A stretch of 64,000 bases of DNA from Xanthostigma xanthostigma (taxonomy: Eukaryota > Arthropoda > Insecta > Raphidioptera > Raphidiidae): NCBI GenBank assembly GCA_963575645.1, contig OY754468.1, forward strand, positions 11,222,001 through 11,286,000, given 5' to 3'. The position numbers and the translations under genes are program-made. The notes beneath the pieces are model-generated. The model saw only the letters and a list, made by a program, of their open reading frames with translations, made no database searches and had not been told where the DNA came from. Below, in pieces: positions 3,966 through 58,732 of the stretch (its first letter is position 1; every line of letters starts with the position of its first letter).

Positions 3966-4486
3966 CATAAGGTATTTAAAACTTGCACCTTGCACTGTAC
4001 TGTTGTTACCGCTGTATTTCATACTGATGGTGTATTAGATAGTTACTGTTGCTGAAATAATTGGGATTGCCTATAGTTGCAGAGGCAAGACAAACAATGT
4101 TGGCAATCCGAGTTATCGCCGAACCATTGCAATGTGCACAAACCGGCTTACCTTTCCCATACATAGATAAATAGGTGTAGTATATCCCGTATCATATACA
4201 CGTGATGTGATCTATGCACCACGTAAAACACAGTAACTAGTCTACCGTACTATCATTACCATATAATATCTGCAATGCAGGATTTGCCCTCTTTAACCTC
4301 ACCAACTTTTATATACAGTCAAACCTGAGTGAGTGAGAACTGGGTAAGCGAGAAAACTCTCTAATGGCCATATTCATCAAACACTATTAAAATAGCTTTA
4401 TACTTCACAAAGATAAGTCCATTTACACTATAATATTCAGGTTTGCATCATTCTCTTATAATAAAATGCAAACGGCATATATAGCA

Positions 4487-5195
4487 CTAGCGGTCCCGCC
4501 AAGTTTCACCCGGGTGCAAAAGAACGAATGGGGAAGAAAGGGACATGAGTACACACATTCATCTTAGTTTACCGAGATGAATGTTATGTCCAAACTTCAT
4601 AATTATCGACGTTACCGTTCAAAAGTGTTTGTCGTTTAAAAACAGTATTTATAATTTTTTTAAGTAATAATTTTTTTTAATATAATAAATATTTAATTGA
4701 AAACACTATAGGAAAATTATTTTTATATAGGCGCCTATAATTGTAACAGTTTTCAAATGAGCTATTAATTAAATTTATTTAATTTTAATTAGTCGTAATA
4801 AAACTTTAAAAAATTGAAATGTAAGCCTTAGAAGAAAGCAATGTAGAATACAAAAAAAATAAAAATATATTCGCCGACGTGGGGCTTGAACTCGAGACCC
4901 TGGCATTAAGAATCTTACACTCTACCGACTGAGCTATCCGACCTTGTGACCGTCACGCGCTAATATTGCTATATTAAGTTACGGCATTTCACCTGATAAT
5001 ATTTGTCGGACGATCTAATTTTGAGATACATTTTTCATTCCGCTCCAATTAGTCGTAGCGTGATATTATATAGCCTATATCCTCGATAAATGGGCTATCC
5101 AACAAAAACATTTTTTTTCAATTCGAACCAGTAATTTCTGAGATTAGCACGTTCAAACAAACAAACAAACTCTTCACTTTATATATTAATATAGA
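4487..5195 (-). mobile_element. Helitron-like element H1 carrying a tRNA-Lys body
   Basis: Read on the minus strand the copy starts TCTATATTAATATATAAAG and ends CGGGACCGCTAG, sitting between A and T without a target duplication, which is the Helitron signature (5' TC, 3' CTAG, A|T site). Seven related copies in the window share the boundaries where these are preserved. A tRNA-Lys-like segment (4872-4943) sits in the middle with the same flanking words as in copy H4. No Rep/helicase coding is present, so it would be non-autonomous. Helitron class is inference from ends and insertion site. Confidence 0.6.
4872..4943 (-). tRNA. tRNA-Lys(CTT)-like sequence inside a Helitron-like element
   Basis: On the minus strand the sequence runs GATAGCTCAGTCGGTAGAGT, an anticodon loop TTCTTAA (anticodon CTT) and GAGTTCAAGCC as the T arm. 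This is clearly derived from a lysine tRNA. The anticodon stem is mispaired and other arms have substitutions, so I take it as a mobile pseudo-tRNA rather than a working gene. Confidence 0.6.
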
Positions 5196-5750
5196 TTTTA
5201 ACGAAATGACTCTAAAACCGGGTCTCTTCTGCCAAATTATTGTATTATTCGAAAATGTGCATTAATTTTCGGCCTTCGCCGAACCATGACTGTAAACTAT
5301 TGGTAAGCAAATAAAGTGTATACTTGAAGCAAATGTGAACGAGGTGTAGATGGAAAGGCCATTTGAACGAAAACTGTTTTATGGTTAAAATAAAAGCTTT
5401 ACAAGTGAAACGTCTGAAAGACAGAGAAGGAGAGGAGAACGAGCGTGCGAGTGAGACGGGCGTATAGGGAAACGGGGCTTGAGATGAGAAGCACAACGCA
5501 GACTGAGAATCAAGAAGTGTAAAATTGCTGATGCCATTTCTATGATAACACCCATGCATGTGTGCGCTCACACCCACACCGAAGTATATAATATTATATT
5601 ATATATTGCATACACATTTTATACAGCGTGTTCCGTCAGTGATCCAGGAAACACCGAACATTAGATTGTCGAGCGTCTAAATTAAAGATTAGTTATAATC
5701 CTTAGTTATTGACACGTCACTTTTGTTATTCCCCATTTTTATTTCAATTC
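5196..5750. other. Spacer, no gene supported
   Basis: A 110-codon minus-strand frame (5245-5577) is the longest here but is serine/phenylalanine-rich without domain signatures. A short GTGTTCCGTCAGTGATCC word at 5629 may be a repeat end. Confidence 0.4.
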
Positions 5751-6105: not shown

Positions 6106-6908
6106 AAGAACCCAGACCCGCCAGAATTACGTCATTTCAGTACTGCTAAGATTTCATCAGTAAATGTACAATATTTAGTTAAAAACGTATGCCAATTTGC
6201 TAGCTTGAAAGCGGGGGCCTTTTAGAGATAACAGCTTCTAAAGGTACATAAAACACGTGCTTACCTATGTGCGCAATGGTACTATGGATGCATATATGAG
6301 TGCGAGTGAGAGCATTAGATGATTTTTTTCATTGACAGCTTCATAAAATGTAGGTTGTTTATTTGTTTCCATGAAAATTTTTTCTCATAAACCATTAACC
6401 AGTCTGTGTGTGTGTGTATTAACAAATAAAAACCTCATGAAGCTGTCAAAAAAGATCATCTAGTGCTCTCACTCGCACTCATATGCTTGGATAACACCAT
6501 TGCGTACGTAGGTAAGCACGTGTGTTATGTAACTTAAGAACCAGTTATCTCTAAAAGGGCCCCCGCTTCCAAGCTAGCAAATTGGCATAGATACGTTCTA
6601 AATTAAATATTGTATACAATAAACAAAATTATCGACCAATTTTTCAGACAATATATTAACAAAATATATAATTAATACATTGACGTTTCGGTCCGGATTT
6701 TTTAGATCAGTTCTGAAGAAGCTCTAAATCCGGACGTCAATGTATTAATTATATATTTTGTTAATATATTGTCTGAAAAATTGGTCGATAATTTTGTTTA
6801 TTGAAGAGTTCTATAATCAGACGTTAATCAAAAATTTAAATATTGTATATTTATTGATAAAATCTTAGCACTGCTGAAATGACGTAGGTCTGGCGGGTTT
6901 GGGATCTT
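6106..6908. repeat. Large imperfect palindrome (about 240-bp arms) split by an insertion
   Basis: The left arm (about 6106-6340) and right arm (about 6435-6906) are reverse complements: ACCCAGACCCGCCAG pairs with CTGGCGGGTTTGGG, and GCTAGCTTG..GCGGGGGCC pairs with GGGCCCCCGCTTCCAAGC. The right arm is interrupted by foldback copy B (6617-6836). The centre is an AT-rich loop with a short GT run. It is probably a MITE of the long-TIR type; no duplication at its edges was identified. Confidence 0.75.
6617..6836. mobile_element. Foldback element PLE-like copy B with 13-bp target duplication
   Basis: Same family as 3144-3434: arms with CAATTTTTCAGACAATATA and the one-sided tail GACGTTAATCAAA. It lies inside the right arm of the palindrome, bounded by TAAATATTGTATA at 6604-6616 and 6837-6849, an exact 13-bp duplication. 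The uninterrupted left arm shows the empty site, which confirms the boundaries. Two independent 13-bp duplications indicate a fixed cleavage offset for this family. Confidence 0.7.
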
Positions 6909-7407: not shown

Positions 7408-7622
7408 ATGTCATCAAAAGGTATTAAAATTACTATTTTTCTTGAAAAACGGCTTGATTTTTACTAAAAACTGCATAAATGTGTCTATATGTTACTCGTT
7501 TAAAATTATACTCAGTATATAATTTTAAACAAGTACCTAACATAGACACATTTATACAGTTTTTAGTAAAAATCAAGTCGTTTTTCAAGAAAAATAGTAA
7601 TTTTAATACCTTTTGATGACAT
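7408..7622. mobile_element. Hairpin element, ~103-bp arms
   Basis: Near-perfect inverted arms ATGTCATCAAAAGG... and ...CCTTTTGATGACAT meet around 7508-7512 with almost no loop. Just downstream (7688-7720) is a motif CGAAGATGGC..GCCAAAACGTC with the layout of a decayed hammerhead-type core, also seen near the other foldback elements. Confidence 0.7.
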
Positions 7623-8257: not shown

Positions 8258-8560
8258 AATGAGTACGCACGTTCACCTTAGTTTACCGACATAAATGTTG
8301 TGTCCAAATTTCATGATGATCGGAGTTACCGTTCAAAAGTTTTTGTTGGACGGACAAATTTTGAGTTACATTTTGCAACATTTTTCATGATTGCTCCGCT
8401 CCTATTGGTCGTAGCGTGATATTATATAGCCTATAGCCTTCCTCAATAAATGGACTATCCAACAAATAAAAAAATGTTCAATTCGAACTAGTAGTTCCTG
8501 AGATTAGCACGTTCAACCAAACAAACGAACAAACTTTTCAGCTTTATATATTAGTATAGA
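8258..8560 (-). mobile_element. Helitron-like element H2, truncated
   Basis: Matches H1/H4 through TTTACCGACATAAATGTTGTG, CATGATGATCGGAGTTACC and the end TATATTAGTATAGA. The 3' end with CTAG is missing, and the tRNA-Lys segment is absent, so this is the plain version of the family. Confidence 0.6.
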
Positions 8561-8606
8561 TATAGATTAATAATATATATTAGATATCGTGTCCATCGAG
8601 ATAATC

Positions 8607-10165: not shown

Positions 10166-10448
10166 GGAATCGTAAAAATGACAAAAATTGTATAAGTTTC
10201 AAATTTATATACCTACATATAGGTATAAAAAAAAATTTAAAAATCGTTTAGCAAAGTAGGTTTCGTTCGGCGATTTTTGCGTGATGCTCGAACAAACAGA
10301 TTAAGTTTTATTCGTATAGATAGGACTGCAGGATAACTGATAATAAAGGAGCTCAAGCAAAACTGAAATTGGAGCAGAAAATGTAAATATGGTGGAGGTG
10401 TGGGTATTTATGGTGGAAGTGCAGATAGTAATCAAATTTTTTCATTAA

Positions 10449-10674
10449 GAGTATTCGTCCCTGCAAATACCCCCTGCACCCTTCATCTTAAATCTTTTCC
10501 CCTCGCCTTAAAACGGTTCGCGCTCTCCCGACGCTATTTTTAAAGTCTTTCATTTGGCGTTTACCAGAACCCTCTAGCTTTAAAAATAGCGTCGGGAGAG
10601 CGCGAACCGTTTTTAGGCGAGGGGAAAAGATTTAAGATGAAGGGTGCAGGGGGTATTTGCAGGGACGAATACTC
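10449..10674. mobile_element. GC-rich palindromic MITE flanked by TTAA
   Basis: Arms of about 97 bp are nearly identical in inverse, GAGTATTCGTCCCTGCAAAT to CGACGCTATTTTTAAAG, around a ~35-base loop. TTAA stands directly on both sides (10445-10448, 10675-10678) and the inverted identity stops exactly there. That suits a piggyBac-type TTAA target, though TTAA is itself palindromic and the CCC start typical of piggyBac is absent. Very low arm divergence suggests a recent insertion or gene conversion. Confidence 0.65.
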
Positions 10675-10813
10675 TTAACCACAAGTGTATAATTTATTGT
10701 CACTCTATTAAATGCGTAACTATTGAAAACTGTTGCGGAAACTCTGTTTTAATTAATTTATGGCCCAAAGTTTCGTAAACCAAAGATTTTGTAAATATTT
10801 AAATTAAGTAAAT

Positions 10814-18470: not shown

Positions 18471-19863
18471 AAAAACACTGTGCTACAGATGATTATCTTG
18501 AACGTACAAGCACCGCATGTTTAACGGATGAAATAATGGAAAATTAAATAGGTTTTTTAATTCTTTTAATTTATGCAACCCACTGTATGCTAAAATGAGA
18601 TTAAGTTTGCCGCGACAAAAAAATTGGTAGGGTGAAACTTCAGAAAGTGCGTACAGCAACGCAAATATCACCGAAAATCTATTATAAGATTTTATATTAG
18701 GTATACGGAACGTGTTTTTGTTGTAACACGTTAAAACTGCAGGCTTAATATTTTGCAGCAAGAAAATTTATAAAATTGGTTTAGGCATTTTTTTAATCAT
18801 TTCAAACAATTTTGAATGTGTCCACCAAACACTAAAATATATAGTGTGTCCTAAAGTATTTGAAAATTGAGAGTTGAAACACGATTTCAACAGAAGGTAT
18901 TTTTGGGTTCAAAGACCACCCTTATTATTGCCCATTTGGGTCTATTTTAAATAGGCTTCGTGCGATGATGTGTACCAAATTTCGTATAAATCAAATACTT
19001 CGAGAATTATCGTGGTAACATACAGCGTGTCCCATAATATGTGAGACATTAGTGTTTTATAGCATTGAATTATGATATTTTGCTCCCTGTAGAAGGTTTT
19101 CGTAATTTTAATATTATGGATTGGTTTTAAATTTAAATTTCTCTTTCAAAAATAAAAAAAATCGTTTTTTAAAAATAAGATTTGAACAATATTTTGCATA
19201 ACAATTAGACTATCAGTCAAGAACAATTGGTGGACGTGGCCGTCAGTCGACTGTTTATCAATAAGAATGTCATACATCTGACGTTTAAATCCCAAAATAT
19301 AAATTGATTTCGTTTATAATAATAAAAAGATTTTGAAATTTTTAGACCACAAAATTTCAAATATTTCAAACTTTACTTAAAAAAATATTTTTTTTAGTTT
19401 ATAAGAAGACAAATATTTAAATACAATGAGTTTCTATAGAACGGAAAATTTTATTAAATAATACTCCGCTTTGAAAGTAAAATTATACTCAGCAAATAGA
19501 GATTAATTATGGAAAATAATTCCTAACTGTAAAAATTCCAAAAAAAATCTTTACAAATAGAACCTAAATATTTGACGTGGAAATTGTGTCAATAATATTA
19601 GATGAAATTCAAAAAAAACTTCCTAGTTAAATGCGCCACATTGCTGGTATAAAAACAAAACGAAGCTAAACATAAATAATTCAAAAAGCTCTAAAAATTC
19701 TTCAATCAACAAACTTTTACTGACTGAACCATAAAAAAACTAACTAATGAAACAATTGCATTATTTAAACCGGCAGCTTGCATTACATTTGTATATTGTA
19801 ATGTTTTTAATGCATTTGGTGCGGCGACTCTAAAAACTATAAACAGAAAAGTTTCGTTTCAAC
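18471..19863. other. 1.4-kb AT-rich spacer
   Basis: Contains two short words typical of repeat ends (TAGTGTGTCCTAAAGTATTTG at 18842 and ACAGCGTGTCCCATAATATG at 19022). Otherwise AT-rich with no frame of interest. Confidence 0.35.
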
Positions 19864-19900
19864 TAGGGATGGACGACAAAAAAAAATAGTGAGTCTTCGG

Positions 19901-20463
19901 TAGAGCTGTAAAAGTAACGAGAAATTGTGTACCCGTATGTATTCGTTATTTAAAGCAGTGGTTTGCAAGGGGTCCGCGCCTAGCCGGTAAAAAATAAAAA
20001 AAATTTCAAAAAACGCTCAGATACACTAAAAACGTGCCAATTTAAGTGTAATTTTGCAAATTTTCCCGGGGGAGGGCCCCCAGACCCCCCGGTATTCGGG
20101 GATCCCCGACTACTTAGCTAGTTCACTTAGGGGTCCACGATTACCTGTTATTTGGGAACCACTGACTTAAAGAACCAGTACCCGTTACTTTCGTATCGTT
20201 ACGTTACTCGTTACTTTTCATACGACATACAATCGTGTACCTACTAACAGCATCAAGCATGTACCATCGCATCGAGGCGCGTCGCATACGTGATACGGTA
20301 TGACTTCGTTCGTATAACGTATAACCGCATCAAACGAGTCGAACTGACATGGATGCGAAAGATGCGAGTAACGAAATGAATTTGTAAGTAACGATTCGTT
20401 ACTTCGAGTCAGACGATGTACCCGTTACTCAGTAACGAATACATACGGTTTGTTACAGCTCTA
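19901..20463. mobile_element. hAT element with exact 8-bp duplication GTCTTCGG
   Basis: Ends TAGAGCTGTAA and TTACAGCTCTA are perfect complements over 11 bp; GTCTTCGG stands at 19893-19900 and 20464-20471. The subterminal region is full of GTAACGAGTAACG-like words in both orientations, as in hAT transposase-binding regions. A second hAT sits inside it near the left end. Confidence 0.85.
19956..20164. mobile_element. hAT MITE nested inside the hAT at 19901
   Basis: Ends CAGTGGTTTGCAAGG and TTTGGGAACCACTG pair well; flanks ATTTAAAG (19948-19955) and ACTTAAAG (20165-20172) are a 7/8 duplication. The interior carries GGGGTCC..GGCCCCC blocks typical of this subgroup. Confidence 0.85.
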
Positions 20464-21291
20464 GTCTTCGGTAATCGAATTAAATATGAAAACACTCAGA
20501 ATCGATGACTACTACAGCTACATATAACCTCAGAACATTTGACGGCTTAACAATGATAAGCTGACGCACTTCTGCATCATTGATTGCTGAGATATCGATA
20601 ATCAAAGACAGAATTATTGTCCTTTAACGTTCAAAGACCGATATTTCGGCGAGAAGTGGTCGTATCAAGGTCTTTAAAAAAAGAAATTAAAGCTGAATGA
20701 ACAAGTTATTCGGTCCATATTGTGGTTAAGTAAAAAAAATTCCAAATCCGTAGACCAAACAAATTACAAAATTTGTTATTCTTAAGATTACTCGAAAACC
20801 GCTGACGCTAAAAGAATTCGAAGTTCAGATCCAAAAACTAGACACTTGAAGCTACAATTTCCTTTTTTTAAATTTTCTGTATGATAATTTTTCCCCAAGT
20901 TACAGCCTGTTGAAAATTATCTAAAAATGTTGATTTTTCTTCCCTTAAATTTACTGTAGTAGAAACTGACATTTATTGTAGTTACTCAAGTGTTTCGTTT
21001 GTTTAAACTGGATGTTTTAAGAAAATCGATATTTTTTTATCATCAGTCGATTTTCTGAGCATTCGTACACCCCTAATAATTACGAATGCATAGAGATATA
21101 CACAAATTGCATCCCCGCTCTATACACATCCATAGCTTATACATAAAAGTAGACAAACACACGGTAAAAGCTCGCTATCGTACCTGCTCCAGGTTGTAAC
21201 TCTGGAAAACGTTGTTATCCAAGTTTAAAACTGCTAATTTACAGGGATTAAACTCTACTATATTACGTACCTACATATATATATAGGTATA

Positions 21292-21605
21292 TCCCATCAA
21301 AAACATAAATGTGAAAAAGGGAACCAAGTTCAATATTCAATACAAAAAGCATTGAGATCTAAAAAGGTTCCAAGTTTTAACTTGACAAGTTTTCGTGTTT
21401 TATATTATGATTTATAGAGAGAGAGAGAGAGAGATTGTGAATTATAGACGCTCAACGGCTGAGGTCATCAGAGTCTATTTATGATTTATACCTAAACTTC
21501 ATGTTTATATGTGTGAAAACTTGACACCTTTTTAGATCTCAATTCTTTTTGTATTGAACATTGAACTTGGCTCCCTTTTTTATGTTTTTGAAAGGATATC
21601 ATTAC
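21292..21605. mobile_element. Inverted-repeat element, ~125-bp arms, with GA microsatellite
   Basis: TATCCCATCAAAAACATAAA at the left and its relative TTTATGTTTTTGAAAGGATA at the right begin long arms that also pair AAGTTCAATATTCAATAC with GTATTGAACATTGAACTT. The loop side holds a (GA)n run at 21415-21434. Confidence 0.65.
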
Positions 21606-21673
21606 TTTTTATAAAGAAATTATTATTGTTTATCATTCAAAAGTGATTTGTAAAATTAATCTTTTTTCTAGTC

Positions 21674-21742
21674 TTTAATTAACGTCTGAATAGAACTCTT
21701 CAAGTAAATAAAATTGTCGACCAATTTTTCTCAGACCATACG
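21674..21742 (-). mobile_element. Foldback PLE-like fragment
   Basis: The minus strand carries GACCAATTTTT..., then TTGAAGAGTTCTATTCAGACG, the tail and one arm piece of the 3144/6617 family. The rest of the element is gone. Confidence 0.55.
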
Positions 21743-22420
21743 ATATTACCTACAGTTTTCTTTTTCGAAAGACGCTAGGTGTTAATAAAAATCGATTGCT
21801 TGGAAAATATTTCAAATCTTAAGAATTCACTGTTTTCTGATTTTTCCTTTATATACAAACACAATTACCTAGCTGGACGCCAAATTTCAACTTTCTGGGT
21901 CATCTGGAACTGGGTTAGGTTTTTGATCTATGTCAGTGAGTCAGTCAGTGATAAAAATGTCGATTTTTAGACGTTAATATCTCAATAACCGTTTGAGCTG
22001 TTTTTATAAAATTTGGGGTTCTAGTTAATCTAAGCGGTTTTAATAAATAAACCAAATTTCATGATTTCATGATAAATAGATTTTGAGTAATTATTCAAAA
22101 GTGACTCCAAATGGTTCGTGTAATATAATACAGGGCTGCCGCTTCTTTTTCTTTGTTGAACTTGGCTTGACACGCTGCCGTGTGTCTAGATACACGTTAC
22201 TCCAAATGTATATACGTTTGCGAGCACATGCAGGCGAATACACGGCCTACGGCAAGCTCCAACCGTCGTTGGGGTTGGGGTTTGAGCGGAAGGCAAGGAT
22301 GAGTGCTGTTTGCCCTTCTTTTCGCGCTTAACGAACGACCTTGCTTTAAGGGCCGTACGCAATCCCGTTGAAGCGAAACTACTTATGCGGCACTCGACGA
22401 CGATTTGAGAAAAGTGAAAT
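21743..22420. other. Spacer, no gene supported
   Basis: 21880-22080 reads like a diverged repeat (TCAGTGATAAAAATGTCGATT, ATCTCAATAACCGTTTGAGC). A GC-richer block at 22130-22340 carries an 82-codon frame with no motif. Confidence 0.35.
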
Positions 22421-22423
22421 TAA

Positions 22424-23340
22424 CAAAACCAAAAAAGAGTGACACAAACGGCTGACAAAAATGCGTTCACAAATGAGTGACGTATTTCCATGCGAGGTAT
22501 GAATTGACCGCTTATCCTCAGTTGGTTAGAAAGTATACGAACGCGACGATCTACCGATTGTCTTAATAAAACTCAGTGAACAAGAAAAGTAAAATTAACG
22601 GAACGAAAATAGAGTGACACAAACGACTGACAATAAAATATTTTTAACAAAAAAATTGAACCGACTTCAAAATATGCACTAAAAAGTAAAAAAATAATAA
22701 TTATTGTTATTTTTGGAGTCGGTGTCACATCGGAATTCGAACGTAGCAATTTAAATCTTACATGTCTCTAGTTCTCGGAATAGATTTCATTTTGGCTGAC
22801 ACCGACTCCAAAAATAACAATAATTATTATTTTTTACTTTTTAGTGCATATTCTGAAGTCGGTTCAATTTTTTTGTTAAAAATATTTTATTTTTGTCTTT
22901 TTAGTGTTAGATAAAATATTGCAATGGGTAGGCCAAGTATGCGTGCCTTTGAAAGAGAGTTTCCCTCGATTTCTCCGGATTCCACCATCAGATCCTGACT
23001 TGGTTCCGATGGAACCACCTCGGAAGTGCACTCTTTCGAATAAAAAAAAAATTAAAAAAATCAGTCCATAATTGACGGAGAAATCGAAAAACATACATAA
23101 AAAAAAATATACAGTCGAACATAGAACCTTCTCCTTTTTTGAAGTCGGTTAAAAAATGATATTAACAAAACCAAAAAAGAGTGACACAAACGGCTGACAA
23201 AAATGCGTTCACAAATGAGTGACGTATTTCCATACGAGGTATGAAGATGAACTGACCGCTTATCATCAGTTGGTTAAAGCGTACGAACTCGACGCTCTAC
23301 CGAATTAGCAGACACAAGACTCAGTGAAAACAGTTTCGTT
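22424..23340. repeat. Direct repeats flanking an AACCGACTTC element
   Basis: AACAAAACCAAAAAAGAGTG and CACAAACGGCTGACAAAAAT occur at about 22424 and again at 23163, each followed by TTCACAAATGAGTGACGTAT and TCAGTTGGTTA; a shorter variant is at 22590. The AACCGACTTC element (22633-23151) lies between. This is either a tandem repeat that was hit by an insertion or a much larger duplicated flank. Confidence 0.55.
22633..23151 (-). mobile_element. AACCGACTTC element, copy 1
   Basis: On the minus strand it opens AACCGACTTCAAAAAAGGAG and closes GGTTCAATTTTTTTGTTAAA. The 3' part is itself a hairpin: GTCGGTGTCA faces TGACACCGAC, with AATAACAATAATTATT-type sequence on both arms. Copies at 47531-48062 and 52009-52542 share the whole plan. 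I recall this opening as one of the commonest non-coding repeats of Lepidoptera. Class unknown to me. Confidence 0.65.
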
Positions 23341-24067
23341 GATGATCGCGTGGCAAAAACATCTCAGAGACTTGCTTGGTTTTTATATACGCAATAAAAT
23401 CGGATCACCGGCGGATATTTGTACATCTATCGCTACCAGCAATCAGTTAGTACTCTGTTAGTACCTACGCAATGTACTTGAGAAACCGCATTCGGCACTG
23501 GAGTTATGTAACCCGTTCGTGATTTGTGGCAATTTGCGCGACGGCAAATCGCAGTCAAACATTCAGTAAACATTTAAATGATAATGAATAACAAATCTAT
23601 GGACAAGAATTTATAAGATGATAAATCGTCTGTATACACAGTTTTAGTGCTTAGTCGTAAAATTTTACCACTATTGAACATTTCGTAATAAAAGAATAAT
23701 AACAAATAATAAAGTACCAAGTACAAGTCTACTTATTCTCTCGAAGAAAAAAAAAACTAGATAAAAGTGTATGACCTCGATGTTATCATATTATTGTCTA
23801 CCTGTGCTACCCGGTTTCAAAAACAGAATATTCCACGATCTTTTTATCCCTGGGTAATACATTGATCTCTATACATAATTATAAATAAACTAGCAGTCCG
23901 AGCTTCATCGTGGACGTTTTTGTAAAATAAATTTATGCACAACATAATATCTTCCACATACTAAAGTCGGTGTGTCTCGAACGGTTTAGGTAGCGTATGT
24001 TTGCAAAAAAAAAAAAAAACAAATTTTACTCATGCTACTACAACCTGGCCAGACAACAGGTGTTACA
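23341..24067 (+). mobile_element. Fossil LTR (gypsy-like), approximate left edge
   Basis: The right edge is clear: ...GGTGTTACA at 24067, two bases, then a primer-binding site TGGCGCCCAGCGCGGGG at 24070. A promoter-like block near 23384-23450 (TATATA, AATAAAATCGGATCACCGGC, TCAGTTAGT initiator) resembles that at 45436-45484, so both may be related LTRs. The left edge is not resolved. No gag or pol is found nearby: this is a fossil remnant. Confidence 0.45.
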
Positions 24068-25500
24068 ATTGGCGCCCAGCGCGGGGTCAACAAATCTTCC
24101 AAACATTGCATTTCTAACGGTTCAGACACGAAATCTTCGATTTTTTGTCGACTTGTTTCAGTAAAAACATCACTACTAATTCCTTAAAGTAACAAAATAT
24201 AGACTAAAACCTGGCCAGACAACAGGTGTTACAATTGGCGCCCAGCGCGGGGTCAACAAATCTTCCAAACATTGCATTTCTAACGGTTCAGACATGAAAT
24301 CTTCGATTTTTTGTCGACTTGTTTCAGTAAAAACATCACTACTAATTCCCTAAAGTAACAAAATGTAGACTAAAACCTGATCAGACAACAGGTGTTACAA
24401 TTGGCGCCCAACGCGGGGTCAACGAATCTTCCACACATTGCATTTCTAACGGTTCAGACATGAAAGCTTCGATTTCTTGTCGACTTGTTTCAGCAAAAAC
24501 GTCACTACTAATTCCTTAAAGTAACAAAATGTAGACTAAAACCTGATCAGACAACAGGTGTTACAATTGGCGCCCAACGCGGGGTCAACGAATCTTCCAC
24601 ACATTGCATTTCTAACGGTTCAGACATGAAAGCTCCGATTTCTTGTCGACTTGTTTCAGCAAAAACGTCACTACTAATTCCTTAAAGTAACAAAATGTAG
24701 ACTAAAGCCTGATCAGACAACAGGTGTTACAATTGGCGCCCAACGCGGGGTCAACAAATCTTCCACACATTGCATTTCCAACGGTTCAGATATGAAAGCT
24801 TCGATTTCTTGTCGACTTGTTTCAGCAAAAACGTCACTACTAATTCCTTAGAGTAACAAAATATAGACTAAAACCTGGCCAAACAACAGGTGGTACAAGT
24901 GGCGCCCGACGCGGGGCCAACAAATCTTCCACACATTGCATTTCTAACGATTCAGACATGACATCTTCGATTTTTTGTCGACTTGTTTCAGTAAAAACGT
25001 CACTACTAATTCCTTAAAGTAACAAAATGTAGACTAAAGCCTGATCAGAGAACAGGTGTTACAATTGGCGCCCAACGCGGGGTCAACAAATCTTCCACAC
25101 ATTGCATTTCTAACGGTTCAGATATGAAAGCTTCGATTTCTTGTCGACTTGTTTCAGCAAAAACGTCACTACTAATTCCTTAGAGTAACAAAATATAGAC
25201 TAAAACCTGGCCAAACAACAGGTGGTACAAGTGGCGTCCGACGCGGGGCCAACAAATCTTCCACACATTGCATTTCTAACGATTCAGACATGACATCTTC
25301 GATTTCTTGTCGACTTGTTTCAGTAAAAACGTCACTAATTCCTTAGAGTAACAAAATATAGACTAAAACCGGGCCAGACAACAGGTGTCACAAATGGCGC
25401 CCAACGTAGGGTCAATTATTACACCAACAAATATTACATACATTGCGTTAGCACTCGCCAAAAGCTTCGATTCGGCCTGTTTTTGTCGACTTTGTCTCAG
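24044..25500 (+). repeat. Tandem array of eight 166-bp units with LTR-edge plus tRNA-Lys primer-binding site
   Basis: Units start at 24044, 24210, 24376, 24542, 24708, 24874, 25040 and 25206; the eighth is 163 bp and a diverged ninth starts at 25369. Each unit holds the LTR edge (CAGACAACAGGTGTTACA or a variant), a TGGCGCCCAACGCGGGG-type sequence and ~110 bp of leader with TTGTCGACTTGTTTCAG. The site matches the tRNA-Lys 3' end present in this window at 40261 at 16 of 17 bases. Three unit types can be told apart and the last four full units form a 332-bp dimer repeated twice. It is a fossil of a gypsy-like element's leader, amplified by unequal exchange or slippage (inference). Confidence 0.85.
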
Positions 25501-25574
25501 CTGCTAATAATTCAAGATCTCGTCGTAAAAAAATTGCAAGATTTTTGTTAAGACTCATATTTTGAGATTAGTAT

Positions 25575-25780
25575 TTAGATTGAAGAAGATTTGTTTGGTT
25601 GAGAAACAAATTTGAAATAAGCTTTACCAGAATATCGCTTGTGGCCAACGTTTCGAGAAATATATTTTCATTGAGGCCCTGATGATGAAAATATATTTTT
25701 CAAAACGTTGGCTACAAGCGATACTCTGGTAAAGCTTATTTCAAGCTTGTTCCTCAACCAAACAAATCTCCTTCAACACA
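25575..25780. mobile_element. Foldback hairpin with hammerhead-like core
   Basis: Arms of ~100 bp (GAAGAAGATTTGTTTGGTTG... and ...CAACCAAACAAATCTCCTTC) nearly meet at 25677. At the apex the plus strand reads CCTGATGATGAAAATATA, then TTTTTCAAAACGTTGG: the CTGATGA box is exact and the second box is one base away from GAAAC. The other arm, read in reverse, keeps GAAAC but not CTGATGA. Similar to Penelope-type ends; class is inference. Confidence 0.6.
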
Positions 25781-26480
25781 TATTTTTGGAACAAAACTTC
25801 TACTAACAATTAGTATTTATAGAGTATAAATTAATATACCTACCGCAGGTCGGAATATCCTAGCGTCGGGGCGCTTTAAAAGGTGTTAAAAAGCCATCGT
25901 TTTGTAATCGCTGAAATTTGACACAGGGCTCATTGAATATAATTTTTGAAAAAAAAAAAGGACAGACCTCAATTGATGAAACAGTCGGTAGCGCAGAAGT
26001 CTGAAACAACTGTTGACTAAAAAGTAACCAAATTAGTGAGGGCGTTATATTTTTATAAACAAAAAGAAGGAAGAAAAAAAGCCTTTGATGCGTTTTACGT
26101 GTGACCGTCGACATTCTTTAAACCAATTTGTGGCGTAGAGCTTTGCCTAATATATCCAGCATAAGCAATAACTATTCTTTACGAAAAGTAGGATAGAAGG
26201 TACACGCTAAATGGCTACATGCATTGACTCCGTACCATACATATAAAGTGAACATAAAGTCCCCATTTTGTACTTTTATAAAGATTGGATAAATGTTCAC
26301 ATAAATACATCAGAATAAAAGGCACTATACGGTTTATGTACAATGCATAGGAACATATATATGTACACGTTATCGACGGTTACAGTACATAAACAGGGAT
26401 GGGTTTGTGTTCATGTAAAAAATTTAAAAAAAAATAGTATATTACATCACAAGGGCCGAGATTTCAACTTTTAAGGCCCG
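25781..26480. other. Spacer, no gene supported
   Basis: An 84-codon minus-strand frame (25860-26114) is phenylalanine-rich without motif. From 26437 the sequence AATAGTATATTACATCACAAGGGCCG resembles 9975-9998. Confidence 0.35.
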
Positions 26481-26728
26481 TGTGGTGTATACGATTTTTC
26501 TTGATATCCGCTCGAAAGTACGTATACTTTCGTCAGCAGGGACGAAAGATTGACATTTACTCCCAGTGAGAACGGCGGGAGGAAAAAATTTCTCATGAGT
26601 ATTTATACTCGTAACTAGGGTTACCGCTGTCATTTAATATAATAAATAACAGGGAGCAAATGTCAAACTTTCCCTGCTATAAGGGACGAAAGTACGTACT
26701 TTCGATCGAGGTATGAAGAAAAAATAGT
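26481..26728. mobile_element. MITE family Y copy 2
   Basis: Left GTGTATACGATTTTTCTTG and right GATCGAGGTATGAAGAAAAA are the family termini, with CGAAAGTACGTA..CTTTCG just inside both. The interior differs from copies at 9612 and 38251 (GGGACGAAAGATTGACATTT), so this is a subfamily sharing only ends. Confidence 0.6.
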
Positions 26729-27289
26729 TAAGGCCGCTGCACACGACGTTAGATTTGCCGCTAGATTCCTTGCTAGATTTGACTACTTGTTTTCTAGCGC
26801 TGGTTTTCTACAATGCTTTTATGTGCTCGCTTCACACGAGACTATTTACAAGCTTGTTTTGTGGATAGATCTGGTGTGCTCGCAGTGACAGTTCAAATAT
26901 AAACACAGAGCAAAACGTGTCTGCTGTCTAACTGAGCAGAATGACGCCTCTAGGCTTGTGGGCGTTTGTTTATGTCGAACTGAAAAATTCTAGCGAGATC
27001 AATTATCTATAATGAACAATTTAATTTAATTTTCAATTTACTATACCTACTTTTCCACATTTATCCTATTTACTGACAGCAATATTTTTAGGCGACTTCA
27101 AAAAAGAAATGGGTTATCAATTCGACCATGCAATTTTTTTTATCATTTTATAATGTGTTGTTTAAGTTTCATCAGTATTGTATTGTCTCACGAACTTATC
27201 GTTGGCGGCGCCACAGGTCTTCGTATAACCTAAAATTATTCCAGTTTCACTTTTTGCGGTCAGTTTTAACGAAAAAATTTCATTCATTA

Positions 27290-27480
27290 CCTACAAGCTT
27301 TCATTTAGGTTCACCTGTCCCGGTGTCTGTCTGTCTGTCTGAAATCAAATCTTGCAACTTAAATTTGACCCACTTCCCGTTATCCGATTGAGTTGAAATT
27401 TTGCATACGTATGTAGTTCCGATGACAATACAATATTATAATAGCTAACTGACCGATCCGGTTTCTCCCGGTTGCAAATC
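27290..27480 (+). repeat. Dispersed repeat, copy 1 (pair with 56505-56700)
   Basis: AAGCTTTCATTTAGGTTCACC, GTCCCGGTGTCTGTCTG, TTGACCCACTTCCCGTTATC and TTGCATACGTATGTAGTT appear in the same order at 56505-56700. About 190 bp; ends unresolved. Confidence 0.6.
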
Positions 27481-27562
27481 ATACTTTTAATAAAGCACAC
27501 TAAAAACTTAAAAGTAAATAAACAATTCTTTTTAAACAATATTTGATTAGTTGTTTATAAAA

Positions 27563-27786
27563 CAGAACTAAAAATGTAAAAACAATTTTATTCCGAATAG
27601 AAATAAGCCGTTCTATGGGTACTTATCAGTCTCAATTTTCAAATAAAAGCGTATTACATTTTAATAGCAAGAAAGAAAAAAGAGGGTGTTTACAGAGGAT
27701 TTTATTTGAAAATTGAGACTGTGATAAGTGCGTATAGAACGTCTTATTTCTAATCGGAATAAAATTATTTTTAACTTTTTAGTTCT
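27563..27786. mobile_element. Hairpin MITE, ~88-bp arms
   Basis: AGAACTAAAAATGTAAAAAC...TTTCAAATAAAA pairs with TTTTATTTGAAAATTGAGAC...TTTTTAGTTCT. The loop holds an AAAGAAAAAAG run. Arms are ~90% identical. The surrounding GAACTAAAAAGT word recurs at 36960 and 41050. Confidence 0.7.
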
Positions 27787-27924
27787 TTTTACATGCTTTA
27801 TATTAACTTCACTTGTAAGTTTGTATGTATTTATGTATGTAGATATGTATGTTTGTTTGTAACCTTCGTTTGGACTACAGCAAGTGGTTTATTACTGTAG
27901 TATAATATGCCAGCACTGTAACTA

Positions 27925-28014
27925 CAGTGGTTAGCCGTGCGGTCTAAGGCACGAGTCTTCGCTGACGTCAACTCTCGGAATCACGGGTCGTGGGTTCTAA
28001 TCGTGTCCATGCCG
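27925..28014 (+). tRNA. Degenerate tRNA-like sequence
   Basis: GGTTAGCCGTGCGGTCTAAG resembles the D arm of a class II (Leu/Ser) tRNA and CGTGGGTTCTAATCGTG a B box with one deviation from GGTTCRANYCC. The acceptor stem does not pair. Likely the head of a SINE or a pseudo-tRNA, not a working gene. Confidence 0.4.
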
Positions 28015-28074
28015 AAAAAAAAATTGTTTTTTTTTTCGGCAAATTTTTGACAATAAATCGAACTAAAAAGTGGA

Positions 28075-28366
28075 AAATAAATATAGTTTAAAAAAAAACT
28101 AAAAAACACGCTTTATATCCAACTAAAAAATAAAAAATATTTTTTTTAAATAAGCTTAAAACAATAATGAATAAAAAATACCTACAAGTATTATTGTGAA
28201 AAAAGCGTGGGGCGCTTTGTTTCACATTTTCGTACATCCCCCACGCTTTTTCACAATAATACTTGTATTTTTTATTCATTATTGTTTTAAGCTTATTTTA
28301 AAAAAATATTTTTTACTTTTTAGTTCGATATAAAGCGTGTTTTTTTAGTAACTATATTTATTTAAT
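28075..28366. mobile_element. Hairpin MITE, ~130-bp arms
   Basis: The arms ACACGCTTTATATCCAACTA... and ...TAGTTCGATATAAAGCGTGT, and inside them GTATTATTGTGAAAAAAGCG and CGCTTTTTCACAATAATAC, are almost perfect complements with a ~30-base loop. Low arm divergence suggests youth. Confidence 0.75.
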
Positions 28367-28849
28367 AACTAATAAAAACTTGTTTTTAAATTTTTTTTGT
28401 TTAGGTATTTATTTTTATCTTGTAAAGTGGTGTTATTTAAATAAACTCGGCAATAAAAAGAGGAGAACAGACGTTTACGTGGGGTTCACTAACTATTCGA
28501 TCCTTCGGGAACTACGCGTTTATCATCATTGACACTATCCAGCGCCATTGTGCCCGTCCGTTCATCCCTGCAAGGGTATTATGGCACAGGACACACGGGC
28601 GTAACATAATGTGAAATCACCAAGGACGAGTGCGCAGTGAGGCGGGGGGGACGATATTGTACAATGCTTGCGTATGTGAGTGTGCCGCTACCATTGATAT
28701 GTAGTACGAACTGAATTCTTTATTCACATTTGAAAAAAAAATCTTTTTGATAGAATATAACCTAGATTAAAATTCAGCTAAATCTACCATTTTTTGGTAA
28801 ATATTTTGTAGGGCTGGCTTCAGTATACCAATTCATTGTTTTATTATTC
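28367..28849. other. Spacer, no gene supported
   Basis: 28550-28640 contains ATTGTGCCCGTCCGTTCATC and GGCACAGGACACACGGG, GC-richer than surroundings, without frame or repeat match in the window. Confidence 0.3.
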
Positions 28850-29228
28850 AACTCACGGCGGGGGTAGATGAGGCTGCGCCTTTTTCCTGCTGCCTCTCGC
28901 CGAGACACGGTAATTTCTATACCGGCCATCTTGTTGATGTTTTCCATGATTTCCCTCAATAAATCCAGATAAATATTGAGATGGTTTCTTATTCAAGGCC
29001 ATGGCCAATCACCTTCCAAACTCCTATGGTCAAAATTTGCCTACCTTATCCTAATGTTCTAGAATTCCTTCATTCGCCCATTGCTATTAATTAGTTGAAG
29101 TCGAAAAAATGTAGAAAATAACGAGAAGTGTTGATAGATGGAAAATAGTAATAGTGCGAATGGCGTCTGTTATGACATAAAGTCGAGAAACGGACGTTAA
29201 ACGCATTATTATTAATATTATATAATAC
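28850..29228 (+). mobile_element. tRNA-derived SINE, copy 2 (5'-truncated)
   Basis: Begins in CACGGCGGGGGTAGATGAGG, so the A and B boxes of the tRNA head are lost. It then runs with the copy at 1336 through CATGATTTCCCTCAATAAAT, GGCCATGGCCAATC, ATTCCTTCATTCGCCCATTG, GCGAATGGCGTCTGTTATGA and AACGGACGTTAAACGC. The two copies are ~85-90% alike over ~370 bp by eye. Confidence 0.8.
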
Positions 29229-29239
29229 AACCAGCGACT

Positions 29240-29475
29240 CGGTCCTGCTTCGCCCGAGATTGCCACCATTTTTGCCATCAACCTACGTTGCAAAATTGGT
29301 CTCCACGAAAAGAGCTTTTATTTTAAAGCGGTAATATATAAGGAATGTTCGTCCTAAAGGTTCATTCTAAATACTAGTGAAAACATTTTTGAAATCGGAT
29401 GAGTAGTTTTGGAAATTATCGCCTGCATCCAAACTTACAAACGTTACCTCTTTATAATATTAGTATAGGTAATAA
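29240..29475 (-). mobile_element. Helitron-like terminal fragments
   Basis: TTGCAAAATTGGTCTCCACG parallels H8 (14720), and CGGATGAGTAGTTTTGGAAA with ATAATATTAGTATAG recurs at 58145-58210 and 63805-63875. These are the 5' ends, on the minus strand, of a common Helitron-like repeat (TATACTAATATTATAAAGAG, then GGATGTAGGAGGTAAT). A second CTAG-type end lies at 29642. Confidence 0.4.
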
Positions 29476-29817
29476 AACGAAAATCAAATTGATATCTTTA
29501 CTTTCAGACTAGAACCTAAGGGTCAAACCGTTGAATTCAGAGAAAGGGGAAGCCAATTAGTCCTAAGGAAGTTTCATTTAAAAAAACCGAAAGCCTCATT
29601 TTTTATAACATAATTTATACTATAGCACACAAATAACAAACTAGCTGTTACCCGCGACTTCACACGAGATTAAGACGATACCCGGATGCGTTCCCATTAT
29701 TTTCAAGTTACCCTTTCTCGACGTAGAAATCCACTAAGAACGGATTTTATGCAACGGGCATATATACTCTCTCCATCTCTTTTTCTGGAAATATTATATT
29801 GAACTTCCTATCTACGC

Positions 29818-30143
29818 CACGGGTGTCAGACTAATTTTTCTAAAGGGTCATTTTAAAAGATTTAGGGTGTCTTAGCGGACCAGACTCTAAATTAAAAAAC
29901 TTAAACACAATATACTAAATTAAAATCCTAATTTATTTAGTTTAACTCAATTTTCATATAAAGGTAATAAAAAGGGTAAATTCTCTTGAGCTTGAGGATT
30001 CAGACATCTGAAGTCTCTTGTTTTTGATAAGCTCATTGATGTCAGGTGTCTAAAATCCTCACTGGATAGATTCTGGTCGCGGGCCGTATTGAGATGACCT
30101 GAGAGCCGGATGCGGCCCGCGGAACGTATCTTTGATATCACTG
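29818..30143. mobile_element. hAT MITE with exact 8-bp duplication ATCTACGC
   Basis: Ends CACGGGTGTCAGACT and ATCTTTGATATCACTG; ATCTACGC stands at 29810-29817 and again at 30144-30151. Same family as 15797 and 48099, in the reverse orientation (CGGGCCGTATTGAG, GACTCTAAATTAAAAAAC). A 92-codon minus-strand frame crosses it and its flank and is not a gene. Confidence 0.9.
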
Positions 30144-32304: not shown

Positions 32305-32323
32305 TAAGTAATAATAAAAATAA

Positions 32324-32692
32324 TTTTAAATAATTATGAATAACGGGAATACGGACACATAGGTATAATTCTTTTCTTTTTATTGCTTACGTTTTATCAA
32401 AAATATTGACTTTGTAAAAATTGACATAATTGAGATTTTTCTAAAGTGGAAATTAAATTATAATTTTTTATGTTAAACTTTATTTTTCTAATTTAAAAAA
32501 TTGTCTTTTGGTAATGTATATTTTTTTTATAATTTTTATTTAAATTTGTTTTGTAATTAATAATTTTGTTATATCCATTTTTACAGAGCTTTGACAAAGT
32601 CAATATTTTTGATGAAACGTAAGCAATAAAAAGAAAAGAATTATACCTATGTGTCCGCATTCCCGTTATTCATAATTATTTAAAATAAACAT
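32324..32692. mobile_element. Inverted-repeat element, ~95-bp arms
   Basis: AATTATGAATAACGGGAATA, GGACACATAGGTATAATTC and TTGCTTACGTTTTATCAAAA on the left have exact or near-exact complements at 32594-32690. The ~170-base centre is AT-rich. The right arm apex TTTGATGAAACGTAAGC has the form of a decayed ribozyme-like box. Confidence 0.7.
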
Positions 32693-38698: not shown

Positions 38699-39378
38699 AG
38701 TCCAGTCAAAATAAACATTTCAATTTACGATAATTCGCATAGAGCTGAAAATTGGAACAGATTACACTATTACAAATACAATATCAAAAGTCCCCACCGA
38801 TCCTACATCTGCTTCAAATAATTTATTCAAGGTCAAAGGTCAAAAGTATCGGTTTCTTGCATTTTTCTCGTATACAGTAAATGTTATCTAAAAATAGGTC
38901 AGACAAAAGTTGTAGATCGTGCAATTATCTACAAGAATTGTTCTTATACTTTTTTTCCTTACGAATCACCATTCTTTTGAAATGGTGATTTCATACATCG
39001 AAAATACTAATATGCATATTAATATTTAACGTTATTTTTAATAAATACGTTCTGTACGTACATAGACATTTTGGTCCCATATCTCAGGAATAATGCTTCG
39101 TAGGAAAAAAAGTATAAGAACAGTTTTTGTAGACAATTGCATGATCTACAACTTTTGTCTGACCTATTTTTATATAACATTTACCGTTCACGAGAAAACT
39201 GCAAAAAACCGATACTTTCGACCTTTGACCTTGAATAATTTTTTTAGCAGATGTAGGATCGGTTGGGACTTTTTATATTTCATTTGTAATAGTGTACCTA
39301 AGACCTGTATCAATTTTCAGCTCTACGCGAATAATAGTAAACCTACCGCTATTTTTATATGTCTATTTTGACCGGACT
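38699..39378. mobile_element. 680-bp element that is almost entirely inverted repeat (~265-bp arms)
   Basis: AGTCCAGTCAAAATAAACAT at the left mirrors ATGTCTATTTTGACCGGACT at the right; CCGATCCTACATCTGC mirrors GCAGATGTAGGATCGG; AGGTCAGACAAAAGTTGTAG mirrors CTACAACTTTTGTCTGACCT. A ~140-base centre separates them. Arm divergence is roughly 10-15%. A MITE of long-TIR type; if transcribed it would form long dsRNA. Confidence 0.75.
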
Positions 39379-40005
39379 AAATATATTATATAAGTATTAT
39401 ACGGAATAGTGTATACTGTATACCATAAAGTATAAGTACTACGTATAGGTGGGTTAGATATAGTAGAGGCTTTATTTCATGTGTACATAAACAATCATAT
39501 CTTGATTATGAGGGGTTGAATGTACAGCTCTCGCTACTGAATGGAAATAATAATTATAAGGCTTTGGCTTTGTGCACAGATTCGTATATACGAACGAGGT
39601 CATAATAATACACTAGATACCGAGCGTCCACTTTTATGAGTCCATTTACATTACGTATCAAAGCCGAGAGATAATAACACGACGCAAAATCACGTGGGAT
39701 TTTCATGTCTGCTTATTACCCGTGTGGAAAAATCGTCGAGTCTTGTAGTGATGTGTCCACATGACTCTTTATCGGGAGCTGGCTCCATGCGCTCCGCTCA
39801 CTAAAAAGAGTCGTTCAAAGGAGCGACACTAGACAGTACCAACTACACAAGCGTGCAGACTGCAGAAGTGTGAACTGTCATCATAATATATGCTCAGGAG
39901 TTACGTAGCATTGCACAGCACAATACACACACTCAGATCTGAGCTCATTTTAATATGATTTTGATCTTATATTACCTATTCGTATTTCGGATAAACTATA
40001 AAGTA

Positions 40006-40573
40006 CTAGCGCGGTCCCGTCCGATTTCATCCGGGTGTAAAAGAACGAATGGGGAGTATACACATTCTTCTTAGTTTACCGAGATGAATGTTGTGTCCAA
40101 ATTTCATGATGATCGGAGTTACCGTTCAAAAGTTTTTGTCGATAAAAAGCAGCATTTAAACTTTTTTTAATTAATTATTATTTAAAATTAAAATAAATTT
40201 AAATGTAAGCCTTAGAAGAAAGCAATGTAGAAAATAAAAAAAAATAAATAAAAATATATTCGCCCAACGTGGGGCTCGAACCCACGACCCTGATATTGAC
40301 AGTCGCATGCTCTACCGATTGTGCCACCTGAGGTTGTGTTCTCACAACGCTAATATGAGTAGAGTATATCTAGTTAGTGCATTTCACATGAATAGAAGCT
40401 TATTTTTGAGATACATTTTGCAACATTTTTCATTAAAGCGTAATATTATATAGCCTACAGTCTTCCTCGATAAATAGGCTATCCGACAATTTTTTTTTTC
40501 AATTTGAACCAGTAGTTCCTGAGATTAGCACGTTCAAACAAACAAACTCTTCAGCTTTATATATTAGTATAGA
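40006..40573 (-). mobile_element. Helitron-like element H4 carrying a tRNA-Lys body
   Basis: On the minus strand TCTATACTAATATATAAAGC begins the copy and GGGACCGCGCTAG ends it, between A and T. It has the same build as H1, including the tRNA-Lys segment with the same flanking words (TAAATGTAAGCCTTAGAAG on one side, GCATTTCAC on the other). Nested inside the hAT-like element at 39746. Confidence 0.65.
40261..40333 (-). tRNA. tRNA-Lys-like sequence inside Helitron-like H4
   Basis: The 3' half, GGGTCGTGGGTTCGAGCCC then CACGTTGGGCG, is a perfect-looking insect tRNA-Lys T arm and acceptor strand. The 5' half (GTGGCACAATCGGTAGAGCA) has lost acceptor pairing and the anticodon loop reads TGTCAAT, so it is no longer a lysine tRNA. 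The intact 3' end is what the primer-binding sites at 24070 onwards complement. Confidence 0.65.
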
Positions 40574-40903
40574 TAATAAAAGCTTAACAATAATGTTTAT
40601 TGTTACAATATTATATCTTTATCATCGACGTCAATGTGAATGGTTTAAGTCACTGTGAACAGTGTGTCATTCAACATTAAACGCCTCAGCAAAGATAACT
40701 CTGTACGTGCAAAGTTCACTAATGTCTCTGTGCCCTGTGCTGTGTGTGCTCTGCAAATGTGCGAATGCAACACAGTACAGAATAGCTCAGCACAGAGCAA
40801 TGGCGCTCGGAGTGAGTCATTCACAAAAAAAAGAGCGACTCGCTCCGCTCCGCGAAAGGAGTCGTTCATTACGAACGACTCTCTCAGGTGCGACACATCA
40901 CTA

Positions 40904-46879: not shown

Positions 46880-47530
46880 CATTGACGCGCCACTCACTTT
46901 TTGCGTGATATTTTTGTAATTGAACTATGAGTAAACTTCAAATAACCGGCAAGGATTAAAAGAACGGACAACTAAAAAATCGTGGTTTATCTTTTGTTTT
47001 CAAAATCTTCTTAGTTTCCGGTCCATTGGTCTTACTATTTGACCACAACTGCGATCGACATGTAGCACAGGTAAGTGTCGACGATTGATATAAGAACGTG
47101 TGCACTTTTGATTTTGCCAACCATTTTGTTTTAGCAGAGTAGAGAGTCTGTCATATTTTTAAGTATATTCTGGCAGTTTTACGCCGAAGAGACGCGGCGG
47201 CGCAGCTCTGTAGAGCGAAGTGAATCTCCATGGAGTGATAGCCAGCGGCGGCACAATATATAGAACCAGTCATCGATCTGTCGTAATGATAACATGGACA
47301 GAATGAATGCGATATTACGTTGGCAAAATTCCAACGGTCGCAAACTGTTCAATTCAACAAAGCTATTATACAAGAAAACTGTATCAATTCTCTGTTATCT
47401 ATCATGTTTGTTATGTACACATGTACAGGCTGTCCATTTTAGCACGTTGCACACTCCTCGGTTCAATATTATATTACGAATTAAAATAATAAACGCTTCT
47501 GTCAGCGGCCTACGAAAAAACACTTCTTTT
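46880..47530. other. Spacer with a foldback-family scrap
   Basis: 46995-47090 (ATCTTCTTAGTTTCCGG, CACAGGTAAGTGTCGACGA) parallels 55676-55830. The rest, including two overlapping short frames at 47294-47533, has no motif. Confidence 0.35.
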
Positions 47531-48062
47531 TAACCGACTTCAAAAAAGGAGGAGATTCTATGTTCGACTGTATATATATAATATATATATATATTTTTTT
47601 TATGTATGTTCACCTATTTCTCCGTCAATTATGGACCGATTTTCAAAATTCTTTTTTTATTCGAAAGAGTGCACTTCCGAGGTGGTCCCATCGGAACCAA
47701 GTGAGGATCTGATGGTGGAATGCGGAAAAATCGAGTGAAACTCTCAAATTTCAAAGGCACGCATACTTGGCCTACCCATTGCTATACTTTATCTAACACT
47801 AAAAAGAGAAAAATAAAATATTTTTAACAAAAAAATTGAACCGACTTCAAAATATGCACTGAAAAGTAAAAAATAAAAATTATTGTTATTTTTGGAGTCG
47901 GTGTCAGCCAAAATGAAATCTATTCCGAGAAATGTAAGATTTAAATTGCTACCTTTCGAATTCCGATGTGACACCGACTCCAAAAATAACAATAATAATT
48001 ATTTTTTACTTTTAAGCGCATATTTTGAAGTCGGTTCAATTTTTTTGTTAAAAATATTTTAT
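47531..48062 (+). mobile_element. AACCGACTTC element, copy 2
   Basis: Runs from AACCGACTTCAAAAAAGGAG, a TA microsatellite (47571-47594), GGTGGTCCCATCGGAACC, CATACTTGGCCTACCCATTG, then the hairpin (GAACCGACTTCAAAATATGC ... AAGTCGGTTCAATTTTTTTG). Overlapping plus and minus frames over the hairpin mirror each other because of the inverted repeat and are not genes. Confidence 0.7.
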
Positions 48063-48063
48063 T

Positions 48064-51320: not shown

Positions 51321-52008
51321 TTAACCCCTAAAAGGCTTAAATGCTTTCTGATAAGTTTTTCATCTGGGTCGGAATATTGTTAGGACTATTATAATTAGTA
51401 GCAAATACAAAAACTCGGGTCGCAGTGCAAAACCCTGCCGACAATATAGTGTATTTGCTATTATAGGCAGTGTGATTACCTTATATAAACTTAACTTTAT
51501 TTTTGAACAAAATAAAAAAATTAACCCCTTAATACACCCCTTAAAATATTTTTTTTCTTAATTTTAATATTACTGTCAATACAACACATTAAATTCACTC
51601 TTCACTAAATAAATCCATATCTACAAACTAAAGTTTTCATAAATTTTATAAGTCCAGTTCTGTCGGGCCGATTTTAATAAAATTTTGGTAGCACAAAGGG
51701 TTAAATTTCAATTTTAAACGATTCGGAGAAATTTTTCGGTATAAATAAAAAGTAAACAACCAACGTTAGATATCTAATTTAACATACTGTGGTCCCAGCT
51801 TAGGTCTCTAGGGAGTAGCCGGGTGACCTTTTCGCAAAAACTAAATTAAATCAATTAAATTAAATGTCATTTACTTACAGACGAATGCAAAGCCAACTCT
51901 CACATACCTGTAACAAAAAAGAAAAAGAAATTAATTAACCTGACAAACTTACGCAAATCATAGTGGCAAGGGAAGAATGGTCAGATACTTATAGAGCGAA
52001 GTATTTTT
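51321..52008. other. Spacer, no gene supported
   Basis: AT-rich with repeated TTAACCCCTTAATACACCCC-type text that may continue the Helitron-like body. Nothing delimited. Confidence 0.3.
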
Positions 52009-52542: not shown

Positions 52543-52995
52543 TATTTAATTAGATTGGTCGTCCCTGCTATGAACGAACGGTGCGCGATACTAAACAAGC
52601 GTCCCGAACCGAGGCAAAGACATCGACAAATATATATAGCACGACAGGAAGACAACGAAACACACATAATATGCGGAAAATAAAACGACAGCGTGTTTTC
52701 ATTTGTTTTTTACCGCATTTTAACAAGTAAAATTTGCGATGTTGTAAATGCGATTATGTAATAACTAAAAAAAAAACTCGTTTGATTAACCCTCTGGTGG
52801 ATGGACTATAAACTATTAGTGCGAGATCCGGTATTAGAAATATTTATATACCCTCAGGTGCTATCTTAGAAGGAGCCTATATCTTTCAAATATATTTTCT
52901 TTTTTGTTAAAAAATGTACAACTATTGTAATTTTGAAAGAAATAAATTTCATTTTTTTCATTTCATCTGTTATTTGATGATGACAAAGATTATAT

Positions 52996-58716: not shown

Positions 58717-58732
58717 TCTTCAGTAAATAAAA

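Follow-up and report, generated by a model that had tools for sequence, protein, structure and literature searches.

Tandem arrays built from parts of LTR retrotransposons have been described in maize, where CRM1TR and CRM4TR consist of LTR-UTR units derived from centromeric Ty3/gypsy elements (accessible text of PMC3648361). The CRM1TR monomer extends from U5 into the UTR, where it ends; 44 islands at two pericentromeric loci are described, 187 full-length monomers were extracted, and similarity to the parent reaches 97%. As its origin, the authors put forward illegitimate recombination and subsequent gene conversion. From the limits of the unit we infer that it includes the primer-binding site, although the main text of PMC3648361 contains neither “primer binding” nor “PBS”. 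Head-to-tail repetition is also described at the 5′ end of insect elements: 19 of the 49 D. melanogaster LTR-element 5′-UTRs tested are reported to be tandemly repeated (PMC8872304, in part), and the available text of PMC5408687 gives 2.3 repeats of 307 bp for ZAM and two to six repeats of 102 bp for Tirant. In plants, Cassandra is described as forming head-to-tail retroelement arrays, with unequal exchange discussed for changes in copy number (PMC7215508, in part), and a 2022 review, in the portion available, tabulates LTR- and UTR-derived satellites (PMC9659126). Our own literature search on elements with more than one primer site, or with a duplicated one, found no relevant title among the matches listed; it took in few subscription journals, and we do not claim absence from print.

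The array described here lies in an insect genome, within a window of 64 kb, which is the whole stretch of DNA that was analyzed. CRM1TR may be regarded as a close precedent of nearly the same design: in both cases, as far as CRM1TR and CRM4TR are described in the accessible text, head-to-tail units run from the LTR into the untranslated leader, the LTR part being presumed in our case. CRM1TR is described as 44 islands with a known parent, whereas here there are nine units in one place in an insect. ZAM and Tirant, as described in the available parts of PMC8872304 and PMC5408687, are insect LTR elements that likewise have head-to-tail repeats close to their 5′ end; however, their repeats lie in the 5′-UTR, whereas in our array the repetition takes in the primer site itself and the presumed edge of the LTR, and a function is not evident. 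The Cassandra unit differs in that it comprises the whole LTR and internal domain according to the available text of PMC7215508, whereas the share of the LTR in our unit would be no more than some 25 bp from its end.

The first-pass annotation of this DNA had proposed a tandem array of eight to nine units, and the array is real. Tandem Repeats Finder (TRF) places it at 24037–25415 with a period of 166 bp, 8.3 copies, 93% matches and a score of 2289, and cutting it at the presumed LTR-edge motif yields nine unit starts, which are the first coordinates of the following lines.

24044–24209, forward strand: unit 1, type A; first primer-binding site, 24070–24087
24210–24375, forward strand: unit 2, type A; primer-binding site 24236–24253
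24376–24541, forward strand: unit 3, type B; primer-binding site 24402–24419
24542–24707, forward strand: unit 4, type B; primer-binding site 24568–24585
24708–24873, forward strand: unit 5, type B; primer-binding site 24734–24751
24874–25039, forward strand: unit 6, type C; primer-binding site 24900–24917
25040–25205, forward strand: unit 7, type B; primer-binding site 25066–25083
25206–25368, forward strand: unit 8, type C, 163 bp long with one ACT lost; primer-binding site 25232–25249
25369–25513, forward strand: unit 9, diverged type D, continuing into what would be the remainder of the leader; primer-binding site 25395–25412

The 64-kb window has one such array of nine units. The class order A A B B B C B C, as it was originally read, holds for units 1–8 and is followed by the diverged D. 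Units 1–8 differ pairwise by 2–17 substitutions. Within classes the figures are 3 (A-A), 2–7 (B-B) and 5 plus a 3-bp gap (C-C), and between classes they are 10–17 of 166, plus the same 3-bp gap for unit 8. Substitutions affect 26 of the 166 columns, or 29 if the gap is counted.

A repeated 332-bp dimer of types B and C, which had also been claimed, is present in a phase unlike that first given, with 24661–24992 and 24993–25324 forming a higher-order repeat:

24661–25324, forward strand: two successive 332-bp B-C dimers, 4 mismatches in 332

At an offset of 332, a dense run of mismatches extends up to 24660, just before this clean duplication. In the earlier phase (units 5–6 compared with units 7–8) the dimers match less well, with 7 substitutions plus the 3-bp gap, because unit 8 shares its type of tail with units 5 and 7 and not with unit 6. 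At an offset of 166, there are 4 mismatches in 24037–24213 (A-A) and 5 in 24351–24634 (B-B). The duplicated blocks differ in length and phase, and therefore several events are needed: following the founding duplication, a minimum of three exchanges or conversions whose boundaries differ. Where the first-pass annotation spoke of several rounds of unequal exchange, the successive duplications, unlike in length and in phase, are directly visible, and unequal exchange is the process that may have produced them.

Unit 9 is a genuine but old relative of units 1–8. Its local alignment to unit 3 (type B) scores 106, and the part 3′ of the primer site alone scores 61; neither score is reached by any of 300 dinucleotide shuffles. 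Compared with each of units 1–8 it has 16–23 differences in 123–124 aligned bases (13–19%), together with indels. Extra units in the flanks were rejected, since shuffles often equal the flank scores on both sides: upstream, the score of 23860–24036 is reached by 250 of 300 shuffles and that of 23500–24036 by 48 of 300, and downstream, the score of 25516–25579 is reached by 266 of 300 and that of 25516–26500 by 235 of 300. The lack of unit homology past either end of the array is as expected from a single parent junction.

An RNA function of the unit was considered and rejected: the four of nine units that were folded (units 1, 3, 6 and 9) are no stabler than shuffles, with z between −0.36 and 0.63. 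We also note an 8-bp palindrome near the LTR end (in 24044–25380), which reads CTGGCCAG in type A and CTGATCAG in type B. The double change from A to B keeps its self-complementarity, but types C and D break it, and we attribute it to chance.

Every unit contains a site that matches the complement of the 3′ end of tRNA-Lys at 15–16 of 18 bases, as had been proposed; the longest contiguous identity is 12 bases in type B and 13 in unit 9. The three variants of the site noted earlier (CCCAGCG, CCCAACG and CCCGACG) are present as written, and the site of unit 8 has one further change, CGTCCGACG. With up to two mismatches, TGGCGCCCAACG has nine matches, all inside the array, compared with 1.55 expected, and none of 100 shuffles gives nine or more. 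The ideal 18-mer with up to three mismatches has 10 matches in the window (nine in the array and one in a dispersed repeat), compared with 0.02 expected. The nine array sites are copies of one another, so that they represent one coincidence at most, not nine. The only other site in the window scoring at least 15 sits in a tRNA-derived dispersed repeat, part of which was used as a model for the primer:

40261–40333, reverse strand: tRNA-derived segment of the dispersed repeat, ending in GCCCCACGTTGGGCG, taken as the 3′ end of the host primer; Rfam tRNA score 25.9 bits, below the gathering score of 29

The name tRNA-Lys follows the Drosophila tRNA-Lys(CTT). Judged by eye, the place of the anticodon is occupied by GTC in this copy and by CTT in a related copy at about 4874–4948 on the reverse strand. 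The dispersed repeat at 40258 has no CCA and would give ATT where the array sites have TGG; the TGG is therefore better explained by a mature tRNA end. Lys-like tRNA segments of this kind sit in a dispersed repeat family with related pieces at 4478–5196, 8259–8561, 39984–40580 and 58208–58717.

Predicted pairing with the modeled tRNA end ranges from −33.8 to −37.6 kcal/mol for the nine sites, compared with −41.8 kcal/mol for a perfect site, and is weakest in unit 9 (−33.8 kcal/mol). At position 13 of the site, units 1–8 all have C and unit 9 has T, which is the base that the tRNA-derived repeat predicts. The unit 9 site differs from the tRNA complement at two positions, G14A and C18T, both of them transitions. 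In retrovirus-like copying, a primer site that is used is rewritten from the tRNA. The C shared by units 1–8 therefore implies that their founder had already drifted or was never the last-used site.

We see no sign of selection on the primer site: among units 1–8, 4 of its 18 columns are variable, compared with 22 of the other 148 columns of the unit, so that it is not better conserved than its surroundings. All four variable positions still pair through G-U. By rough arithmetic made after the event, considering base composition and transitions only, such a pattern has a chance of about 4%, and it could be a weak hint of residual constraint.

Each unit had been read as including an LTR edge beside the primer site. 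GTTACA ends 2 bp 5′ of the first site, and a TATA box (23880) and two AATAAA motifs (23884 and 23926) lie upstream of it; these are weak signals, and they point to an LTR that we treat as putative:

23507–24067, forward strand: putative 5′ LTR of a dead element, TGTAAC…GTTACA, 561 bp; a weak assignment with a tentative start

A site complementary to a tRNA 3′ end thus directly follows the LTR, if the LTR is accepted. The start at 23507 is the only TGTAAC in 22300–24069. This motif is common, with 46 occurrences on the two strands of the window, from which about 0.6 would be expected by chance in that stretch, and its presence is therefore weak evidence for an LTR; the start may also lie further upstream. 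There is no TCAGT or TCATT initiator downstream of the TATA box at 23880, the last one being at 23563. In the same region a 175-bp direct repeat is found at about 22408–22582 and 23152–23328 (86% identity), with a truncated copy at 22583–22636. It is split by a mobile element of about 520 bp, which has other copies at 47527–48063 and 52004–52543. The 175-bp repeats may be U3 repeats of the putative LTR, in which case they would offer a rival start further up, or they may be unrelated to it.

The 64-kb window contains no second copy of 23507–24067, and we conclude that the LTR element here is at most a truncated remnant. The designation “gypsy-like” in the first-pass annotation finds no support: no gag, pol or env remnant was found when 66 frames from 19000–30000 (48 aa or longer) and 112 frames from the whole window (70 aa or longer) were scanned. 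The only Pfam matches were Urate_ox_N (0.015) and NPIP (0.034) among the 66 frames, and DUF6611 (0.0045) and DUF5442 (0.0059) among the 112; all are isolated and weak, and we read them as chance. With a longest listed stop-free frame overlapping the array of 70 aa (25339–25548), a coding function of the array was likewise rejected. Exact-pattern scans found no junction, idealized junction or leader in viral contigs, and neither the junction nor the idealized junction in prokaryote genomes, which means little since an insect element would not be expected in either collection.

The origin that we favor, with moderate confidence, is that an LTR edge, its primer site and part of the leader were tandemly duplicated after the death of the element and then reshuffled by exchanges. 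The founding junction would have comprised about 25 bp of LTR end, then the tRNA-Lys primer-binding site, then some 120 bp of leader, and an illegitimate exchange joining the middle of the leader to the LTR end may have duplicated it. One copy, the one nearest to the body of the element, would then have aged by itself as unit 9. In the other lineage, T at position 13 of the site would have changed to C, and this lineage probably reached eight units through several rounds of unequal exchange or conversion. The steps of growth would be A-A, B-B and the doubling of the B-C dimer as one 332-bp block, the blocks themselves being those observed above. The presence of C13 in units 1–8 and T in unit 9 fits founding from a site that was no longer rewritten from the tRNA. 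We count in favor of duplication after death that there is no sign of the site being kept, that the RNA of the folded units is no stabler than shuffles, that no coding remnant was recognized in the scanned frames, and that there is a precedent in maize. No function of the array is evident, beyond that of a substrate for further exchange.

Several observations count against this origin. The last 27 bp of the unit have no detectable match in the LTR that precedes unit 1 (an unanchored alignment whose score is equaled by 841 of 1000 shuffles) or in the sequence after unit 9 (by alignment without a shuffle control), and the founding join is therefore not reconstructed. Moreover, a single array is seen, which would also be compatible with an array shared by the whole family, its variable site positions tolerate G-U pairs, tandem leaders are common in insect LTR elements, and the window has no second LTR.

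The main rival, which we consider possible but distinctly less probable, is that the parent family normally carried a tandem leader in the manner of ZAM and Tirant, and that the fossil simply inherited it; such repeats may serve as insulators or as binding sites for proteins of the host. The Drosophila precedents (19 of 49 5′-UTRs tested, in the available part of PMC8872304, and the ZAM and Tirant repeats in that of PMC5408687) speak for this account, and the greater divergence of unit 9 (13–19%) than of units 1–8 among themselves indicates that the repeated state is old. However, the Drosophila repeats, as there described, lie within the 5′-UTR, whereas here every unit has the presumed LTR edge and primer site. 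Furthermore, a last-used site should match the tRNA, and units 1–8 have in common a base other than the one predicted by the tRNA-derived repeat.

We consider it improbable that the family had many usable tRNA-Lys sites, with units moving in and out of the LTR and LTR length changing in each cycle of copying. Downstream priming would then have moved the upstream units into the LTR, making units 1–8 its tail and the site of unit 9 the true one. The T13 kept by unit 9 alone would fit this account, with G14A and C18T as later decay, as would the predicted pairing of all nine sites with the modeled tRNA end. Yet unit 9, supposedly the last used, pairs most weakly of the nine; the window contains no 3′ LTR, with or without an array; and conservation is no greater in the sites than elsewhere in the unit.

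Similarly improbable, in our view, is an ordinary satellite with no LTR history, its site being fortuitous or a tRNA-derived repeat read backwards: 166 bp is a usual satellite unit length, tRNA-derived repeats do occur in the window, and neither a second LTR (in the window) nor a gag or pol remnant (in the scanned frames) is present, but the match includes the TGG expected from a mature CCA end where the repeat at 40258 has ATT, 10 matches to the 18-mer are seen compared with 0.02 expected, the nine array copies making one coincidence at most, and the first site lies 2 bp after GTTACA, in the place where LTR elements carry it.

The array has the appearance of a small satellite repeat; the kind is known from plants, and this example is from an insect. 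What chiefly makes it interesting is that its presumed source still adjoins it. The beginnings of satellites are usually inferred from large, mature arrays; nine units attached on one side to an LTR-like flank would instead display early steps, namely one old duplication followed by differently phased blocks of 166 and 332 bp. If relatives carried the array, it would represent a natural element with multiple primer sites instead.

The window contains a number of other repeats. Shortly after unit 9 is a foldback element (25580–25776) with arms of 88% identity, over which Rfam gives six miRNA-family rows (25613–25739), all below their gathering scores. A tRNA-like head at 1345–1404 on the forward strand (Rfam tRNA, 32.1 bits) belongs to a probable SINE, with a related body at 28847–29219. 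TRF also identifies a second tandem array at 61233–61790 (156 bp, 3.6 copies, 83% matches) and a 137-bp tandem duplication at 59945–60214 (92% matches). Self-complementary foldback or MITE-like elements occur at 38699–39378, 6167–6614, 7408–7622, 10445–10678, 28075–28363 and 32323–32686.
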